Positions 18,332 through 25,953 of a stretch of 25,953 bases of DNA are shown in pieces. Source of the stretch: a virus; the IMG/VR virus record IMGVR_UViG_3300047560_000467, positions 1-25,953 of that record; one strand, given 5' to 3'. The notes under the pieces are model-generated. The model had not been told where the DNA came from and did not search any database. It saw nothing but the letters and a program-made list of their open reading frames with translations. Both the position numbers and the translations under genes were made by a program. Within the stretch, counting starts at the first letter, position 1, and every line of letters starts with the position of its first letter.

Positions 18332-19297
18332 TTAAAAGCCAAACAAGCCTTTAAACGCCGTTGGATTCGCGCCATACGCACCAAGACCAGCGCCAAGCAA
18401 CCCAGTCAATCCCGACATATTTGCGTTTTGCTGCGCTTGTTGCAGTCCATATTGATTCATGGCCGCTTGCCCTTGCGCTTGCGCTCCAGCAAAAATCGGC
18501 GCTGGCGCAACTTGTGCAGCCTGATAACCTTGGAATTGCGGCATCTGAATTTGCGAACCTGACAGCAAGCCAGTAATTTCGTTCAACGGTTGTTGACGCA
18601 TTGCCAACTGCCGCGACAGTTCTTGCTGCTGTGCCGCATTCTGTGCTGCCATTTGCGCTTGCTGTTCGTTAAATCCTTGCGCCCGCGCTCCGGTATCAAG
18701 GCTAATGCCCTGCAAAGCCGCTTGGCTCAACAGATCGTTGCGGTTCTGCGCTGCTTGCGTTTGTGCCGTCCTGTAAGCCTCTGATCCTGGCGTGATGCCC
18801 TGATTAGCAAGCTGATTTTCCATTGCAGCTTGTTGGCGTTGCAGTTGCGGCTCTAACCGCGCCATGATCGCTTGCTGCCCCGTCATTCCTGCATTGACCG
18901 GCATTTGTGCAAGGTTAGACAAATCAAGGCGGGTTTGCAGTCCTTGCCCTGCTGTTCCAGTAGGCGCAAAGGCTTTGTTAATCACATCTTGGGCTGTTGT
19001 TGCGCCAGTTTCACCAAGACTTGCAAGCAGTTTTTGAACTCTTTGCTGCGTGTTAAATGTTTCTTGCGCTGTTGGAGTTAGGGATTGCTTGACCGTTGGC
19101 TGGTTTGTGGTCGGATCAAACGTAACTAACTGCGTTCCAGCGGGCGAATAAATGTTTGGATTATTTATATAACCCTGTGCTATTGCTGTTTCTTTGTTAG
19201 CCGCGCCTTGCGCTGCCGCTGCGCCAGCATAATCAGGAACTGCTGGCGCTGCCGGTTGAGAACCGCCGCCAAATATCGTTTCGACAAGTTTAGCCAT
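18332..19297 (-). CDS. Internal/minor virion protein, 321 aa
   Basis: It opens with MAKLVETIFGGGSQPAAPAV, continues with Ala/Gln-rich helices (about 85-260: ARLEPQLQRQQAAMENQLAN, GFNEQQAQMAAQNAAQQQEL) and ends in GLLGAGLGAYGANPTAFKGL. Such Gln/Ala-rich helical proteins starting near F-G-G-G recur just after the tail tube/adaptor genes of pelagiphage-like podoviruses, where they are seen in virions. I judge it an internal or ejected protein; an adhesion helper cannot be ruled out. Its ATG lies within the last 8 bp of the GNAT gene. Confidence 0.68.
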   Translation of the reverse strand: MAKLVETIFGGGSQPAAPAVPDYAGAAAAQGAANKETAIAQGYINNPNIYSPAGTQLVTFDPTTNQPTVKQSLTPTAQETFNTQQRVQKLLASLGETGATTAQDVINKAFAPTGTAGQGLQTRLDLSNLAQMPVNAGMTGQQAIMARLEPQLQRQQAAMENQLANQGITPGSEAYRTAQTQAAQNRNDLLSQAALQGISLDTGARAQGFNEQQAQMAAQNAAQQQELSRQLAMRQQPLNEITGLLSGSQIQMPQFQGYQAAQVAPAPIFAGAQAQGQAAMNQYGLQQAQQNANMSGLTGLLGAGLGAYGANPTAFKGLFGF

Positions 19298-19718
19298 GAA
19301 CTTCCTCCAATTCCTGACGCATCCACTTTTGAGCGTCTTTTTTCATCAATCCATAAATGCACACATCGCCATTTTCATGTGCATTACGCATAACGCCTTC
19401 CAACTTAAAACCCATGTGATTCGCAAATCGCCGTGACTTTTTGTTGCTCTTGAGGATCGTTCCTGTAATTCGCTTGCATTGCAACTGCTCAAACGCATAA
19501 CGCACAATTGCATCCATGAAACCCCTGCTAATTCGTTCAGCAGCAATGTGCATCAAAATGTTCGGATGTTGGTAGCAATCAAACACCACACCAGCCACTA
19601 ATTCCTCATTGCTGTTAAGCAATCCGATTGCAGAGTAGTTCTGCCATTCCTCGGTTTGCCCTTGCTTGCTTGCCACATAGCGCCCGATGAGTTCTTTCGG
19701 CTCGGTAATGATCTTCAT
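19290..19718 (-). CDS. GNAT family N-acetyltransferase in virion operon, 142 aa
   Basis: The start ATG 19718-19716 overlaps the preceding TGA. MKIITEPKELIGRYVASKQG is followed by ELVAGVVFDCYQHPNILMHI, a GNAT-type beta-beta stretch. ISRGFMDAIVRYAFEQLQCK (R-G-F-x-x-A-I) is the acetyl-CoA region of a RimJ/RimL-like GNAT, then ITGTILKSNKKSRRFANHMG and FKLEGVMRNAHENGD follow, a standard RimI/RimL end. All main elements are present, so activity is plausible. Pelagiphage-like genomes carry such a gene at the same place; the substrate may be a virion protein or host protein. Confidence 0.82.
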   Translation of the reverse strand: MKIITEPKELIGRYVASKQGQTEEWQNYSAIGLLNSNEELVAGVVFDCYQHPNILMHIAAERISRGFMDAIVRYAFEQLQCKRITGTILKSNKKSRRFANHMGFKLEGVMRNAHENGDVCIYGLMKKDAQKWMRQELEEVHG

Positions 19719-21280
19719 ATACCAGCCCAACCCGTTTGATACACCACGTCAGTCGATGCCCATTCAATCTGTATGCCGCTACTGGCGCTTTTCAACTGAA
19801 TTGCGCCGCAGTACCCGATGCCGGTAATGCCTTGCCAGTTGTTTGTGATCGTCGAATCCGATCCCCACACGCCAACATCCCACAAAGACGTGCCCCAAAC
19901 GCCATAGCTTTGAGGACTGTAAGACAGCGCGGCAGTAGTGTCTTGAATGTCAAAATCGACGTTCATGCCGACAAAAATAGCCGGTTGTCCGTTGGTAAAC
20001 AGGCTAGGTCTTGCGCGAGTGAAATACTTCTTAACGCCGCGAGAACCATAGTAATTGAAGGCTTGTAGCGTGTTGGCAGGGATGTTTGCCGTATTGTCTT
20101 GATAGTCTAACGTCCACGCTTTGCCGACGAAGCCATTCCCGCCGAAATAAGGGTCATCGTTGTAGATTTCCCAACAATTAGCATTCCAACCGGTAAAGTT
20201 GCACCATGCTTTTGTGATGTTGTTCATGACATACTGCTGCTGCTGCGAACCTTCGGACGTTGGCACATTGACAAACAGCGCATTGTTTTTTGCGTTGTAA
20301 AGAATCTGCCAGCCAAAGTTGTCTTGATAAGCTCGCGTCGCTTCTGCAAATGCGCCTTGAATCTTGTCCGATAGCGCCACCCTTGGATCAAGCCGAGAAC
20401 TCTGCACAGCAGACGCAAGCGGATAAAGACCGTCAAGCGTAAGGATCAACAGATCGCCGGAATACTTGAACATACACCGCTTGCCAATGGGAGTGCCTAG
20501 CTTCCACACGCCAATCAGCGCCCATGTCGATGCGCTTGCAGGGTCAGTCCCTCGATACGCAACGATCTCGCCATTGCTGGTCACAAACACTAGGTTATCG
20601 TCAGCACCATAACCAGCATCAATCGTCCATGTTCCAATCGCAACAAGATAGCCACCAAACCGACAGATTGAACTCAGGTCTAGCTGTTCAGCCGCCCCAC
20701 CAATGGAGGAAGTAGGCAGATACCACGCCTTGAGGGTGTTCTTTTGAATGAACCAAACGCGGTTTTTGAACAGCGTCACATCGTCAAGCGTTGTCGTGGT
20801 AACGCCCGTTATTGCGGGAGTCGATGCCCCTGTGATCGATGTCCAGTTCGTGCCGTCATACAGCAAGGGAGCATCTACACCGTTGGCGCAATACATATAA
20901 GAGCCGCCAGGCGTAGAAACGTTGACGTATTCCCACCGGCTGTTGGTTAGTCCTGATACTACCGCTGCACCAACCGCACCGCCCGCTGTCACGTTGTAGA
21001 TTTTGCCGCCAGCAACTGCAAACAATCGTTCAGCAGAACCACCGGAATAATTGAACAGGCTTTCGACTTGTCCTGTAATGCCTGTCGCAAATTGCTGATA
21101 GCCGCCCCGTAGGTTGACGCTTGAGACAGTCGGGAACATATTGGTAAGCTGGACAGCGTCCGTTGCTTCCATATTGGCAAGCGAATCGCGGGCATTCCAG
21201 CCACCAATAGGCGCAGGCAAGGAAGCGACTTGCGCCGCTGTGCCTTGAATCATCATCCGACGGCGTGCGCTGGTTGCCAT
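19715..21280 (-). CDS. Tail/DNA-stabilisation structural protein, 521 aa
   Basis: The start MATSARRRMMIQGTAAQVAS is basic; then PIGGWNARDSLANMEATDAV and NMFPTVSSVNLRGGYQQFAT give a hallmark start of large podoviral tail proteins. The rest is beta-rich, with short strands such as NRVWFIQKNTLKAWYLPTSS and GDLLILTLDGLYPLA, which would fit a beta-propeller. The C-terminus has SYGVWGTSLWDVGVWGSDST. Position (after the adaptor, before the internal proteins) and length resemble P22 gp10-type stabilisation or T7 gp12-like tube proteins; I do not choose between them. Its ATG overlaps the stop of the adaptor gene (TGATG). Confidence 0.72.
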   Translation of the reverse strand: MATSARRRMMIQGTAAQVASLPAPIGGWNARDSLANMEATDAVQLTNMFPTVSSVNLRGGYQQFATGITGQVESLFNYSGGSAERLFAVAGGKIYNVTAGGAVGAAVVSGLTNSRWEYVNVSTPGGSYMYCANGVDAPLLYDGTNWTSITGASTPAITGVTTTTLDDVTLFKNRVWFIQKNTLKAWYLPTSSIGGAAEQLDLSSICRFGGYLVAIGTWTIDAGYGADDNLVFVTSNGEIVAYRGTDPASASTWALIGVWKLGTPIGKRCMFKYSGDLLILTLDGLYPLASAVQSSRLDPRVALSDKIQGAFAEATRAYQDNFGWQILYNAKNNALFVNVPTSEGSQQQQYVMNNITKAWCNFTGWNANCWEIYNDDPYFGGNGFVGKAWTLDYQDNTANIPANTLQAFNYYGSRGVKKYFTRARPSLFTNGQPAIFVGMNVDFDIQDTTAALSYSPQSYGVWGTSLWDVGVWGSDSTITNNWQGITGIGYCGAIQLKSASSGIQIEWASTDVVYQTGWAGI

Positions 21281-22188
21281 CAGTTCGTCCCGTAGCCGCT
21301 ATCGGGAATGTTGTCGTAGCCAATGAGAACTGTGCCAGGACGCGGAGCAAGGGACAAGTTAGCGGAGGACATATCAAGAGCCTTCGCTGCTTCCAATTCG
21401 GTCAGATAGTTACGCATCATTGCTGTGGTGTCAAAGCCTTTAGCCTCGAAATACTTCAGCTTTGTAGCGTTGACCATCAGTCGGTCAGGATAGATACAGG
21501 TGTCGGTGTCAGCAGTAAAGGAATTCTTGACAGTCCCATCCGCAGCTTGCGCCCATCCTTTGCTGCGGTACTCAAAGCCAAGATATTCAGCCGTAGACAT
21601 ACCGGGCCAAATCTGAAAGTATGCACCAAGCAAGCGCCAACGAATACGCGGGCCGGTTGAGATATAGCCCGACAGTAACCATTCCCATTGCTGTGCATCT
21701 TCCGGGCCAAGCATTTCCCAATGCTTCGACTTATCCCACATCGTGCGCGGGACAAGACTTTCGTAGTCGCTCGGTAGCGAATACTTGATTTTCTGAAAGT
21801 AGGCAGTAGCACCTGCGGCGCTTGCAGCAAAGTCCTGATTGACTGTAACTTGTGTACCTGAGTCAACCGAAACAATGTAGGTGTTCTGATTGATGCCTGT
21901 GCCTTGAACTTGATACGTCGTATCAAGTCCCGCAGTCGATGCCATCGTGATCGTGCGAGCTGCGGTTGTCCAAGTGCCGGTGGTCGTGATGTATTCGGTG
22001 TAAAACGCGTGCGGTTTCGTCAATTCCCGCCAAGCGTGACGGCGCAGAAACTCGTATCCGTTCGCGTTCATTAACGCAAGTATTTGGATTACGTCCTGAT
22101 TCGTGTTGCCTGCTACGCTTGTCGGGGTTGCAACGCCAAGCTCGTTAGTTACTTGCTGCACTAACTCCAGCATCGTTGTCGTTGACAT
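21280..22188 (-). CDS. Head-tail adaptor-like virion protein, 302 aa
   Basis: I take ATG 22188-22186 with GAGG upstream; the longer frame adds 20 Trp/Arg-rich residues and is unlikely. MSTTTMLELVQQVTNELGVA and QILALMNANGYEFLRRHAWR form the helical start. YSLPSDYESLVPRTMWDKSK and RWRLLGAYFQIWPGMSTAEY are the landmarks of podoviral adaptor/tail-tubular A-like proteins, which form a ring under the portal. It is 44 bp inside the end of the AT-hook protein gene. Relation to P22 gp4 or SU10-type adaptors is likely but not resolved. Confidence 0.72.
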   Translation of the reverse strand: MSTTTMLELVQQVTNELGVATPTSVAGNTNQDVIQILALMNANGYEFLRRHAWRELTKPHAFYTEYITTTGTWTTAARTITMASTAGLDTTYQVQGTGINQNTYIVSVDSGTQVTVNQDFAASAAGATAYFQKIKYSLPSDYESLVPRTMWDKSKHWEMLGPEDAQQWEWLLSGYISTGPRIRWRLLGAYFQIWPGMSTAEYLGFEYRSKGWAQAADGTVKNSFTADTDTCIYPDRLMVNATKLKYFEAKGFDTTAMMRNYLTELEAAKALDMSSANLSLAPRPGTVLIGYDNIPDSGYGTN

Positions 22189-22711
22189 TCTCTTTCCTCG
22201 GTCGGCCAGGTTTGCGCTGCTCCAATAGCATCGCCATCTGCGCCTCAAGTTCTTTCAGTTTTGCGCGGGTTTCTTCCAACTCACCGCTAGAAACCTTTTG
22301 ATTCTTGTTCAGCAAGTAATTCCGCGCGCGTTCGCGCAATCCTACGCCGCCCATGCCAATCCGTTGAAGCTGATTATCGCTTGCCGTGGCGACTTGTTCA
22401 ACCGTCTGAAACTTGAGAATCTGCAACTCAGCCAGTTGATTGTCGCTCAGTTCGTCGGGGCGGTCTTGAAACCAATCTTTCAGCGGCACGCCAATAACCG
22501 GGCCATCGCCGCTTTGCATCTGAAAATGCAGCCATTGCCGAGGAAACCGCTCTTTGTGGTCATCCCGAACCGGCTGGTCAATCACCGTGGTTTTGTCTCC
22601 TGGCACTACGATTCGCACAAACGGCTTTCCCTTGTAGGGGTCTTTCTCGTAGTTGTAAAACTCAACATAGAGTTGCGAATCTGCATTGTTAATATCTGAA
22701 TCGAGTGCCAT
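22145..22711 (-). CDS. Virion-module protein with C-terminal AT-hook-like tail, 188 aa
   Basis: The sequence SQLYVEFYNYEKDPYKGKPF, then PGDKTTVIDQPVRDDHKERF and PRQWLHFQMQSGD is a conserved phage pattern, and ELQILKFQTVEQVATASDNQ then QRIGMGGVGLRERARNYLL completes it. These proteins lie between the capsid and adaptor genes in many aquatic podovirus-type genomes; the function is unknown. The C-terminus has a heptad-like helix (TRAKLKELEAQMAMLLEQRK) and then KPGRPRKE, an AT-hook-like GRP core, so DNA contact near the packaged genome is possible. It begins 18 bp after the upstream gene and overlaps the adaptor gene by 44 bp. Confidence 0.7.
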   Translation of the reverse strand: MALDSDINNADSQLYVEFYNYEKDPYKGKPFVRIVVPGDKTTVIDQPVRDDHKERFPRQWLHFQMQSGDGPVIGVPLKDWFQDRPDELSDNQLAELQILKFQTVEQVATASDNQLQRIGMGGVGLRERARNYLLNKNQKVSSGELEETRAKLKELEAQMAMLLEQRKPGRPRKENVNDNDAGVSAASN

Positions 22712-22729: not shown

Positions 22730-23095
22730 TTAGGTTTTCGTGCCGTTGATGCTGTACCACATACTGTTACTGACTGCGAAAAAAATGCTTGTATGGTCTT
22801 TGCTGATACTTGCCGAAGTTGTCTGATTGATCGTAGTAGTTGATTCGTACGGGTAGACCTTGAGCGTGCTTGCACCGCTGTTCGCAATGTAAATCACCTC
22901 CCCCATTTCGGTCGGGGGAAGTTTTACGCCTGTTCCCGATGCAACCGTGTCCACCGAATTGAACACGCTTACCAACTGCGTTGCGTCTGTTCTTGTCGAT
23001 CCCGCAGCCGTGATTTCGTCTTTGCCATCCCCGCAAATAGAAACGGTGGATAGTTGACTGACACCCGAACCGAGAACCCGCGAAGGTATGCTCAT
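22730..23095 (-). CDS. Small beta-rich virion protein, 121 aa
   Basis: The sequence starts MSIPSRVLGSGVSQLSTVSI, has a Thr/Val/Ser-rich centre (DATQLVSVFNSVDTVASGTG), a conserved LPPTEMGEVIYIANSGASTL and ends FFAVSNSMWYSINGT. It appears beta-structured and may be a head fibre or decoration protein; sequence alone does not say which. Its ATG overlaps the stop of the methyltransferase gene (ATGA), so the sugar cassette and the virion genes are on one transcript. Confidence 0.65.
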   Translation of the reverse strand: MSIPSRVLGSGVSQLSTVSICGDGKDEITAAGSTRTDATQLVSVFNSVDTVASGTGVKLPPTEMGEVIYIANSGASTLKVYPYESTTTINQTTSASISKDHTSIFFAVSNSMWYSINGTKT

Positions 23096-23568
23096 TTAAA
23101 TCCTAAAACGCGCAAATCTCGCTGCGGAATATGAAAAAAAGGTTCTTCAAATCGCACATTCTGAAAACCTGCTTCGGTCAACAACGCACCGATTTCAGCT
23201 TTAGAGTAGCACCAATGATGCCGCATCGTATCAGGTTCGGGCATTCCAAACAATGCTCGCCCGATCAAGTCATCATGCCGATAGCCCGCATTCCACAAAG
23301 CAATCACGTTATCAAGACACGGCATCTCAAGCGATAACTGACCGCCTGGCTTCAGCACCCGCCGCCATTCCAGTAAGGTTTGTTTCACCTTCAGGCGTTC
23401 GATATGCTCAAACAAGTGAATCGCAGAAATCTCGTCGGCATGGTCATCCGGCAAGTCAAGCTTTGTTACATCGGACAGCAAATCCTGATCCCCGACGCAA
23501 TCGACGTTGATCCAGCCAGGCCAAGACCTGTCACCCGCCCCTAAATGGAGTCGAATAGCGTATCCCAT
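23092..23568 (-). CDS. Class I SAM-dependent methyltransferase, 158 aa
   Basis: IRLHLGAGDRSWPGWINVDC holds the SAM-binding loop (L-G-A-G, motif I) with an acidic residue at the end of the next strand (INVD). SAIHLFEHIERL is the motif often found in COG4627-type predicted SAM methyltransferases. WRRVLKPGGQLSLEMP is motif III, and RHHWCYSKAEIGALLTEAGF is the standard C-terminal part. The enzyme is small but complete. COG4627-type members usually sit in polysaccharide or glycan modification gene sets, in line with the glycosyltransferase upstream, which it overlaps by 28 bp. The target, a sugar or lipid, is not known. Confidence 0.87.
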   Translation of the reverse strand: MGYAIRLHLGAGDRSWPGWINVDCVGDQDLLSDVTKLDLPDDHADEISAIHLFEHIERLKVKQTLLEWRRVLKPGGQLSLEMPCLDNVIALWNAGYRHDDLIGRALFGMPEPDTMRHHWCYSKAEIGALLTEAGFQNVRFEEPFFHIPQRDLRVLGFK

Positions 23569-24377
23569 GCCGCTCCAATCTGTTCGGGGGAATAGTGCAT
23601 TTGGATGTATCGCTGACCTTCGCGTACCAAATCATTCAATTCATGCCTGTAGGCTTGCGAGAACTGCAACCCGCCCTTGACTGGCCCAAGGTAACAAAAG
23701 TGTCTGAATTCCTTGTTTATAACAATCTTACTGGCGATTACAAAACAACCCGCCATGACTGCGTTAATGAGTCGATTCGGGCTTTTGTAGGTTTCTTCGG
23801 CGTTCGGTAGCAAAACAATGTTGCTTCGGTGCAGCAGTTGTTCTTGTGCGCTGTTCGACCACGGCACACAATCGATCAGGTCATTCGGCCCTGTGCAGTA
23901 GGTCATATCGTACTTTTTCAACATTTGTTGATAGGGCAAGATTTCTTTCAGATTGCTTTGATGCCCCATCCACAAAAATTTGTTGCCGTCTGCGTGCGGT
24001 TGACCGCGTTGCTCCCACGAATCGGGGATTACTTGGGCATCCCTTTCCGCATGGCGGCGAATTCGTCGCGCCATTTCCTCAGTCGGACACACAACTGCAT
24101 CAGCTTCTCGAGCCATTTCTTCATAAAGTTTCCCTAATTGCGGATGCTCAAAGTGGTCATCGCAAATATCGACCACCATTTTTACGCCTTGCCCCTTCAT
24201 GTGATGCCAAAGCATTGCATCATCGGGGTGCGGCTTGGCAAAGACGGCTATATCCGCGCCTTGAGCATTTAGCCTTGATTTGTGTTTGCAATACGCTGAA
24301 GGCAGTTGCGCCCTCAATCGGTAGGATGCCATGTCAGCACCCCCGCGATGCAGCCAGGTTACGCTGCGAGCTTCCAT
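23541..24377 (-). CDS. Glycosyltransferase (GT-B-like), 278 aa
   Basis: The N-terminal half (SVTWLHRGGADMASYRLRAQ, then ADIAVFAKPHPDD and MVVDICDDHFEHP) looks like a Rossmann-type acceptor domain, and ADAVVCPTEEMARRI follows. The C-terminal half has NKFLWMGHQSNLKEILPYQQ, a GT-B donor-domain start, and VLLPNAEETYKSPNRLINAV, equivalent to the E-x-x-x-x-x-S nucleotide-sugar contact. This plan matches GT4-family enzymes. The start ATG 24377-24375 has AGGAG four nt before it. It is embedded between DUF115 and SAM methyltransferase genes, so a shared substrate is likely: a virion protein, or a host surface glycan. Confidence 0.78.
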   Translation of the reverse strand: MEARSVTWLHRGGADMASYRLRAQLPSAYCKHKSRLNAQGADIAVFAKPHPDDAMLWHHMKGQGVKMVVDICDDHFEHPQLGKLYEEMAREADAVVCPTEEMARRIRRHAERDAQVIPDSWEQRGQPHADGNKFLWMGHQSNLKEILPYQQMLKKYDMTYCTGPNDLIDCVPWSNSAQEQLLHRSNIVLLPNAEETYKSPNRLINAVMAGCFVIASKIVINKEFRHFCYLGPVKGGLQFSQAYRHELNDLVREGQRYIQMHYSPEQIGAAWDTLFDSI

Positions 24378-25135
24378 GCGCTCCTAACCCGCAGGATTTC
24401 GGCTATCAGCCCGTCTCCCCGCGCTTCGATTGTAATGTCCGGCATCACGCTAAATACCAGTTGGAACTCGTTTGCCTGCTGTGCCATCGCCATGTTGCTT
24501 ACAAACTTCTTGCGGTGCGGCGCTTCACCCACATAAATTTCAATTGTCTGACCGGCTTTCTCACCGGTAAAGCGTTTCGTCCCATCCTCGCGGATGCAAG
24601 AGTCATAGCCATACAGGATGAACTTGCGGAAGCCTAGCAAGTAACCGATATTGATAGCCCGCAGGCCGGAAGTCGTTCCCCCGCCTACTGCAAGCCTTTT
24701 GCCAATTGCCTCGCATTCAGCGTCTTGCGACCACGAATGCCAAAGCAGCACATTCTTGTCAGCAAGCCAGTCGAACATCACCGGCGGGCATCGGGATGCC
24801 ACCATGTAGACCGTGTGATCGTTCTTTTTCTGAATGCAGTTAGTCCTGTCTCGTGGGTCTAAATCTACCCACAAATCAGGTTCTATGCCGTTGTCGCATA
24901 GGAAATCGTGTGCGCCCTTGATAGCGCAGATCGTCCTGCCTTGTTCGCGTTGTTGACGTATCTCGTCAACGAACTCAGGCATGGATGGGCCGCTCCCGAC
25001 CAGCACAAGTGTTCCATCGTGCCGAGCGGGAGCGGGTTGTAGCTCCGGAAGTCCCCGCGCAAGCGCAGAGCGGATGTAAGCCGAATTTTCGTCGGGCGTA
25101 CCGGCAGCCCGCACAGAGATTTCCAGTTTTTCCAT
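24359..25135 (-). CDS. DUF115/MptE-like putative glycan or diphosphokinase-fold protein, 258 aa
   Basis: TLVLVGSGPSMPEFVDEIRQ, then ICAIKGAHDFLCDNGIEPDL with WVDLDPRDRTNC, and GGTTSGLRAINIGYLLGFRK then FILYGYDSCI are the landmarks of DUF115 (6-hydroxymethylpterin diphosphokinase MptE-like; also found in flagellin glycosylation factors such as Maf). In bacteria, DUF115 proteins transfer nonulosonic acids to flagellin; phage versions are common but undescribed. Here it precedes a glycosyltransferase (19-bp overlap) and a methyltransferase. Its ATG overlaps the stop of the decoration protein gene (TAATG), so it is made with the virion proteins. A role in glycosylating virion or host surface is plausible; the substrate is unknown. 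Confidence 0.75.
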   Translation of the reverse strand: MEKLEISVRAAGTPDENSAYIRSALARGLPELQPAPARHDGTLVLVGSGPSMPEFVDEIRQQREQGRTICAIKGAHDFLCDNGIEPDLWVDLDPRDRTNCIQKKNDHTVYMVASRCPPVMFDWLADKNVLLWHSWSQDAECEAIGKRLAVGGGTTSGLRAINIGYLLGFRKFILYGYDSCIREDGTKRFTGEKAGQTIEIYVGEAPHRKKFVSNMAMAQQANEFQLVFSVMPDITIEARGDGLIAEILRVRSAWKLAA

Positions 25136-25626: not shown

Positions 25627-25953
25627 TTAAGCAATCAGCACGCCGCAGAACTGCGGGCCGCTGCTAGTCAAGTTACCGGCCCAACCAATCAGCTTAACGA
25701 TTGCATCTTGGTTGACTGCTTGGCGCTCGCCACCGATAGGAACAAAGTTCCGGTCAGCGTGCGGACGGAACATCAGGTACTTGGTGTTCAAGAACCACAT
25801 ATGGTTTGCGGTAGCGGCAGAACCGATACCACCGTCCAGCACCACATCCGAAGCCATACCAGCGCCGAAGTATTTCAGCGAGGCAAAGCCAGCACCGGCC
25901 ATCGACGAACCGCTATCGGTAATGCGCTGAATCGACTGGAGCGATTGCAGGTA
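25627..25953 (-). CDS. Major capsid protein, partial (N-terminus beyond window)
   Basis: The frame is open from the right edge of the window and ends at 25627, giving the last 108 residues. An internal Met at 25902 is not a start. Readable landmarks are YLQSLQSIQRITDSGSSMAG, then NHMWFLNTKYLMFRPHADRN and NQDAIVKLIGWAGNLTSSGP. The pattern with MWFLNTKYL, R-P-H-x-D-R-N-F, and N-Q-D-A-x-x-x-L-x-x-W-A-G-N-L-T matches the C-terminal region of the major capsid protein of podovirus-type and related phages. It is followed by the decoration protein. Full fold is not visible. Confidence 0.82.
   Translation of the reverse strand, partial: YLQSLQSIQRITDSGSSMAGAGFASLKYFGAGMASDVVLDGGIGSAATANHMWFLNTKYLMFRPHADRNFVPIGGERQAVNQDAIVKLIGWAGNLTSSGPQFCGVLIA

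Follow-up and report, generated by a model that had tools for sequence, protein, structure and literature searches.

Co-exchange of a Maf-related enzyme gene and a coat-protein gene suggests that Mx8-like viruses sugar-coat their own particles

A Maf-like gene abutting a decoration gene

The stretch of DNA analysed here (the window) is the whole linear IMG/VR record IMGVR_UViG_3300047560_000467, 25,953 bases long, from an uncultured freshwater virus of bacteria. Its virion operon contains a gene for a putative Maf-like glycosyltransferase of the DUF115 family, which abuts the gene for a decoration-type virion protein (DEC) next to the major capsid protein (MCP) gene. DEC and DUF115 are exchanged between related phages as one unit, and this joint swap of a Maf-related enzyme and a coat gene suggests that the particles are sugar-coated by the viruses themselves. 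Beyond DUF115 lie genes for a glycosyltransferase (GT), a methyltransferase (MT) dependent on S-adenosylmethionine (SAM) and two further proteins, V1 and V2. From the MCP end, with protein lengths in amino acids (aa), the genes are:

25627..25953, minus strand: C-terminal part of MCP; phrog_9953, major head protein (E 1.2e-27); the gene runs off the contig end
25135..25614, minus strand: DEC, decoration-type virion protein, 159 aa; phrog_29386, virion structural protein (E 1.5e-6)
24359..25135, minus strand: DUF115, putative Maf-like glycosyltransferase, 258 aa; PF01973
23541..24377, minus strand: GT, GT4/GT-B-like glycosyltransferase, 278 aa; family matches below cut-off
23092..23568, minus strand: MT, class I SAM-dependent methyltransferase, 158 aa; PF13489 and PF08241
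22730..23095, minus strand: V1, small Ser/Thr-rich putative virion protein, 121 aa; without family match
22145..22711, minus strand: V2, conserved homologue of Mx8 p50; phrog_20268, with matches in Mx8-like relatives; right-hand flank of the variable slot

An earlier note on this DNA had described DUF115, GT and MT as three overlapping genes with sugar-handling signatures, set between a head decoration gene and the next virion gene. The open reading frames (ORFs) confirm the three minus-strand genes, whose junctions with one another and with the downstream neighbour overlap by 19, 28 and 4 bp; the DUF115 start codon additionally shares 1 base with the DEC stop codon. The upstream neighbour, with its match to a virion family, is as described. 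V1 finds no family match in the Pfam or PHROG comparisons, so its label as the next virion gene derives from its position.

Among 24 distinct loci that carry the trio, the DUF115/GT overlap is 19 bp in 19 and 4 bp in the other five. Ratios of non-synonymous to synonymous substitution (dN/dS) in four pairs involving the window are 0.016-0.058 for DUF115, 0.065-0.194 for GT and 0.051-0.112 for MT. Such low ratios, together with the kept overlap, argue against chance ORFs: the trio genes are real and under purifying selection. GC content provides no mark of a foreign origin for the cassette, its values (0.50-0.55) being similar to those of neighbouring genes. Three matches in genome collections represent the same phage module within contigs of metagenome-assembled genomes.

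In the window, AMI (the tail-stabilisation protein) and the C-terminal part of the capsid protein match those of Myxococcus phage Mx8 and of Mx9, ppBjS10J-1, BUCT555 and others, with ~28-59% identity in the phages named. The MCP part is 54% identical to the 'major virion structural protein' of Mx8 and 59% identical to the MCP of Bradyrhizobium phage ppBjS10J-1, and the order MCP, p49 (DEC), p50 (V2), p51, p52, GNAT is common to the window and Mx8. Given MCP and tail homologues arranged in the Mx8 order, the window is identified as an uncultured Mx8-like podovirus.

Family and predicted fold of DUF115

The window DUF115 protein matches PF01973 (MptE-like, formerly DUF115) with an E-value of 7.5e-17 and a score of 62.1 bits, well over the cut-off of 34.6. 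Its structure was predicted with AlphaFold2 from an alignment of 31 relatives, with a predicted local distance difference test (pLDDT) score of 86.6. The Maf flagellin glycosyltransferase 5mu5 is the top match in the profile search (E 1.2e-10) and, for the model, in Foldseek (E 1.6e-9) and VIA-align (Z 21.4 over 219 residues, 2.6 Å). The archaeal 6-hydroxymethylpterin diphosphokinase MptE (8sd5) ranks second (Z 14.7; profile E 1.1e-4), ahead of the cell-division protein SteA (Z 10.5-11) and sialyltransferases using sialic acid activated with cytidine monophosphate (CMP; Z ~9-10). The predicted fold is of the Maf catalytic domain type rather than the MptE type and supports the sugar-handling signature of the earlier note. 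Invariant residues of the DUF115 alignment include S51, D93, R95, T155 and D178.

While DUF115 shares its domain family and fold with the Maf flagellin glycosyltransferases, it differs from them in architecture and setting. The 258-aa protein aligns to residues 244-504 of 5mu5 only, the three-domain Maf architecture (about 630-670 aa) being absent; having the Maf catalytic domain alone, it is Maf-like and not a Maf protein. It is encoded beside a decoration gene in a phage virion operon rather than in a flagellin locus and, unlike Maf, has some relatives that bear a C-terminal methyltransferase. In an excerpt of PMC11339370, the central Maf domain is given as pfam01973 (Maf_flag10) and likened to the sialyltransferase Cst-II, and Maf is described as O-glycosylating Ser/Thr of flagellin with nonulosonic acids from CMP-sugars. 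We infer that DUF115 probably acts as a Maf-like O-glycosyltransferase on a virion protein, for which DEC is the likeliest candidate.

DEC and DUF115 as the conserved unit

Five scans together with cultured relatives yielded 284 sequences, 174 of which contain both anchors and reduce to 130 distinct MCP-to-tail intervals. DUF115, a glycosyltransferase-type gene, is linked to the virion genes in 91 of the 130, and in all 91 a long DEC immediately follows the capsid gene and V1 is present in one or more copies. None of the 35 intervals that lack DEC carries DUF115. The 39 intervals without DUF115 comprise 22 with a short gene of ~98 aa (c6) at the DEC position, 13 with other or no recognised genes (eight of which share a similar 88-89 aa gene) and four that keep DEC, namely those of Mx8, Mx9, ctMlz233 and L201 (L numbers denote surveyed loci).

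GT and MT occur in 24 of the 91 DUF115 intervals, always both (24/24) and always after DUF115, and a GT8-type gene is added in 7 of these 24. The remaining 67 DUF115 intervals are without both genes, which rules out the trio as one conserved unit. As DEC always accompanies DUF115 and GT and MT are optional, the conserved unit is DEC plus DUF115. The cohesion of the trio, for which the earlier note had proposed a survey, thus holds for the inseparable GT and MT and not for the three genes as a whole.

The enzymatic assignments of these optional genes differ in firmness. The window GT reaches GT4-type Pfam models below their cut-offs (PF13439, E 1.9e-4; PF13579, E 4.4e-4) and matches the glycosyltransferase family phrog_7162 (E 8e-6); its structure model is poor (pLDDT 57.3), with BshA and GtfC as best fold matches (Foldseek E 3.4e-4 for BshA). 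MT exceeds the Pfam cut-offs for both PF13489 (34.6 bits, cut-off 27) and PF08241 (32.8 bits, cut-off 21.2). A sequence search of the PDB with GT and MT returned nothing useful. In 22 of the 91 intervals, corresponding to 22 of the 67 without GT and MT, DUF115 is instead fused to a C-terminal methyltransferase. The separate and fused enzymes could not be joined into one family, hmmsearch listing no match in either direction and hhalign giving a probability of 0.5%; with no detectable homology between them, methyltransfer has been recruited to DUF115 at least twice. Searches of 50,697 phage records by tblastn found no match for the DUF115 of the window or of L163, and a fused DUF115-MT query matched one record, chiefly through its MT part.

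This company bears on the possibility that DUF115 is an MptE-type pterin, nucleotide or other small-molecule enzyme surrounded by unrelated morons. The Pfam family and fold are indeed shared with MptE 8sd5, the second fold match, yet Maf scores higher in all three comparisons, and the DUF115 neighbours act in sugar and methyl transfer, not folate metabolism, as seen in the linkage to GT and MT in 24 of 91 intervals and the methyltransferase fusion in 22 of 91. Within the DLDGD stretch of MptE, which we take to be catalytic there, only D93 is invariant in the DUF115 alignment and the neighbouring positions vary. A small-molecule role is considered very improbable.

Joint exchange of DEC and DUF115 between phages

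On a tree of AMI with 126 rows, the presence of DUF115 changed 10 times. In nine independent pairs on this tree, the DEC type shifted in the same direction as DUF115 in 8.6 on average and never in the opposite one (p 0.0039). The length type of DEC and the lineage of DUF115 partition perfectly into 49 and 42 rows, and DEC length type requires one change on the DUF115 tree against three on either tail tree.

Individual pairs of loci delimit the unit that moved. L140 and L207, like L162 and L182, can be aligned up to the MCP end and again from the DUF115 stop, with V1 left in place; between L172 and L167, the exchanged unit takes in V1. Compared with L094, which lies on the same contig as L145, the window shows identities of 64% for DEC and 55% for DUF115, yet 79% for GT and 85% for MT. 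Comparison with L145 or L123 gives the same picture, DEC and DUF115 having diverged while GT, MT and the flanks remained close.

Distance correlations address whether there is more to this than adjacency. In 52 thinned rows, conditioned on MCP, TAIL and V2, the correlation is 0.72 for DEC-DUF115 (p 0.001) and 0.00 for DUF115-V1. In a strict set of 37 rows with DEC, DUF115 and V1 as direct neighbours, the partial r values are 0.51 for DEC-DUF115, 0.01 for DUF115-V1 (p 0.40) and 0.13 for MCP-DEC; the p-values derive from Mantel permutations, which leave rows non-independent.

Several observations weigh against DUF115 as a glycosyltransferase matched to DEC. The two genes adjoin and may co-move through linkage alone, and the non-adjacent pair DEC-V1 has a partial r of 0.47 in the strict set, against 0.51 for DEC-DUF115. 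The latter correlation is 0.67 in the long-DEC group (n=25) and falls to 0.09 in the short-DEC group (n=12). The pair test for DUF115 presence on the TAIL tree, with five pairs, is not significant (p 0.0625), and the length-type test on the tail trees has too few events (p 0.5). All four Mx8-type relatives with a long DEC are without DUF115, so DEC does not need DUF115 there. Among the window genes that were scanned, a subset of its ORFs, none was recognised as a gene for sugar-nucleotide synthesis. The Ser/Thr content of DEC, considered as a marker of an acceptor, is not diagnostic: it is 0.215 with DUF115 and 0.161 in the four DECs without it, and 0.240 in short genes of intervals without DUF115. 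Finally, 6 of 130 intervals (three with DEC and DUF115, three with the short gene) contain mutually similar HNH-type genes after MCP and before the swapped unit, and it is plausible that such genes at the MCP/DEC junction drive cassette exchange. Their positions, with HNH_3 confirmed by Pfam for L156 only, are:

L156:5073-5549, HNH-type gene
L249:2811-3266, HNH-type gene
L284:2662-3153, HNH-type gene
L230:596-1099, HNH-type gene
L262:1042-1557, HNH-type gene
L266:1774-2238, HNH-type gene

Taken furthest, these genes would mark a recombination hot spot that moves any content and links DEC to DUF115 without a functional match. The cultured Stenotrophomonas phage BUCT555 (MW291508.1, L195:3322-4642), whose DUF115 slot is occupied by small genes, among them a putative holin and an endolysin, fits such an exchange point. 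A hot spot indifferent to content does not readily explain why DUF115 alone was never lost in 91 intervals, despite identity down to ~25%, nor why the adjacent pairs MCP-DEC and DUF115-V1 fail to co-diverge as DEC-DUF115 does. This explanation is regarded as improbable.

DEC and V1 as candidate acceptors

The assignment of DEC as a virion protein is strengthened by a relative that matches phrog_29386 at E 1.5e-23, and by matches of DEC-family members to p49 of Mx8, which carries the annotation 'major virion structural protein'. In DECs of the DUF115 type, Ser or Thr is kept at >=90% in four columns, corresponding to window DEC residues 20, 114, 141 and 144. Among the four DECs without DUF115, Thr stands at residue 20 in 2/4, with counts of 2/4, 1/4 and 1/4 for residues 114, 141 and 144; rows without DUF115 are too few for these columns to be used as an acceptor marker.

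Among near-identical phages V1 (22730-23095) varies far more than the genes around it, with 46-99% identity where DUF115 has 95-100%, and it is often duplicated.

An acceptor other than DEC, either V1 or a tail protein, would make DEC a linked passenger. Several points speak for V1: it lies directly downstream, is present in 91/91 DUF115 intervals, is rich in Ser/Thr (fraction 0.251) and frequently duplicated, correlates with DEC, and was carried along in the L172/L167 exchange. It is also found, however, in 24 of 39 intervals without DUF115; its divergence does not follow that of DUF115 in the strict set; and two exchanged units end at the DUF115 stop with V1 unmoved. An acceptor of this kind is judged unlikely, and DEC is preferred.

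Particle or host surface

Polysaccharide clusters commonly contain glycosyltransferases and methyltransferases of the GT, GT8 and MT types. Such enzymes might change a surface glycan of the host late in infection, for instance to block superinfection or to release progeny from receptors, and the greater variability of GT relative to DUF115 in four close window pairs (69-97% against 95-99% identity) is what a receptor arms race might yield. The location of DUF115 speaks for the particle instead. PF01973 is absent anywhere in 20 of 23 records searched, the other three being phages of the DUF115 type, and none of the 23 showed DUF115 anywhere but in the virion slot; nor was PF01973 found in any of nine cultured or named Mx8-like records searched. 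DUF115 switches with DEC type, and on the KD19 scale no stretch of transmembrane-strength hydrophobicity was found in DUF115 or MT (peak values of 0.90 for DUF115, 0.68 for MT and 1.84 for GT).

A similar pair also lies beside the capsid gene of an unrelated phage, the siphovirus ctUtU524 (MW202621.1) from Manatee Spring, which has a Gp13-like MCP and is a single case. Directly after the MCP gene it encodes a methyltransferase that shares 36% identity with the fused MT, and the next gene, with a product of 277 aa, weakly matches DUF115 (E 0.0022, below the Pfam cut-off) and a sialyltransferase PHROG (E 0.0064):

MW202621.1 53256-54640 (L291:6151-7535), MT and DUF115/sialyltransferase-like genes

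A role at the host surface is thus quite unlikely. The earlier note had offered decoration of the virion and alteration of a host glycan with equal weight; operon position and co-exchange with the decoration gene favour the former.

A proposed glycosylation module

We give about an even chance to the proposal that DUF115 O-glycosylates a virion protein, DEC being the likeliest target, and that GT, GT8 and MT extend or methylate the resulting glycan. DUF115 would act in the cytosol on DEC, either ahead of capsid assembly or in its course, with a nucleotide-activated host sugar as donor, possibly a CMP-activated nonulosonate by analogy with Maf. In part of the lineage, the GT4-type enzyme would then extend the glycan, joined in a few phages by the GT8-type enzyme, before a separate or fused methyltransferase methylates it. 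DEC and DUF115 would constitute a matched pair and GT and MT an optional second layer, the presumed benefit being a masked or altered particle surface.

More broadly, and more tentatively, the locus can be viewed as a self-contained capsid-glycosylation module, exchangeable by horizontal transfer and composed of DEC and its cognate Maf-type O-glycosyltransferase, with optional extending or methylating enzymes recruited at least twice; the sugar coat of the head could then be changed by a two-gene swap. The chances of this wider view are put slightly short of even.

Relation to known systems and significance

The Mx8 relatives ppBjS10J-1, BUCT555, RHph_I3_18 and ctMlz233 have the same morphogenesis gene order as the window, and the p49-like gene corresponds to DEC in Mx8, Mx9 and ctMlz233. 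A GNAT acetyltransferase-like gene (window 19290-19730) lies in the virion operon here and in most Mx8-like relatives fetched, under annotations that vary from potential holin (Mx8 p53) to head assembly protein and acetyltransferase. For the protein encoded at 19715-21280, the PHROG label 'amidase' looks wrong, its relatives being annotated as phage stabilisation protein or tubular tail B.

To our knowledge, few phages have been demonstrated to glycosylate their virions, and enzyme and target have rarely been paired. Precedent exists in mycobacteriophages, whose capsid and tail tube subunits are glycosylated according to Freeman et al. 2023, as cited in excerpts of PMC12619734 and PMC12691614. 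That system belongs to another host group, and the excerpts mention no Maf-type enzyme. In the window phage, the enzyme gene is paired with a decoration gene, and in some relatives with a methyltransferase as well. Searches of open-licence PMC papers turned up no description of a Maf-type enzyme in such a pairing with a capsid decoration gene, and a dedicated, exchangeable pair of DEC and a Maf-type enzyme appears new.

Here comparative genomics points to a Maf-like enzyme together with its probable acceptor, and the two-gene pair is small enough to be co-expressed and examined by intact mass. If true, the proposal would carry Maf-type O-glycosylation beyond flagella to the capsids of viruses. 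It would also explain the retention of DUF115 next to the capsid gene in these aquatic phages and provide a modular route by which phages change their surface.

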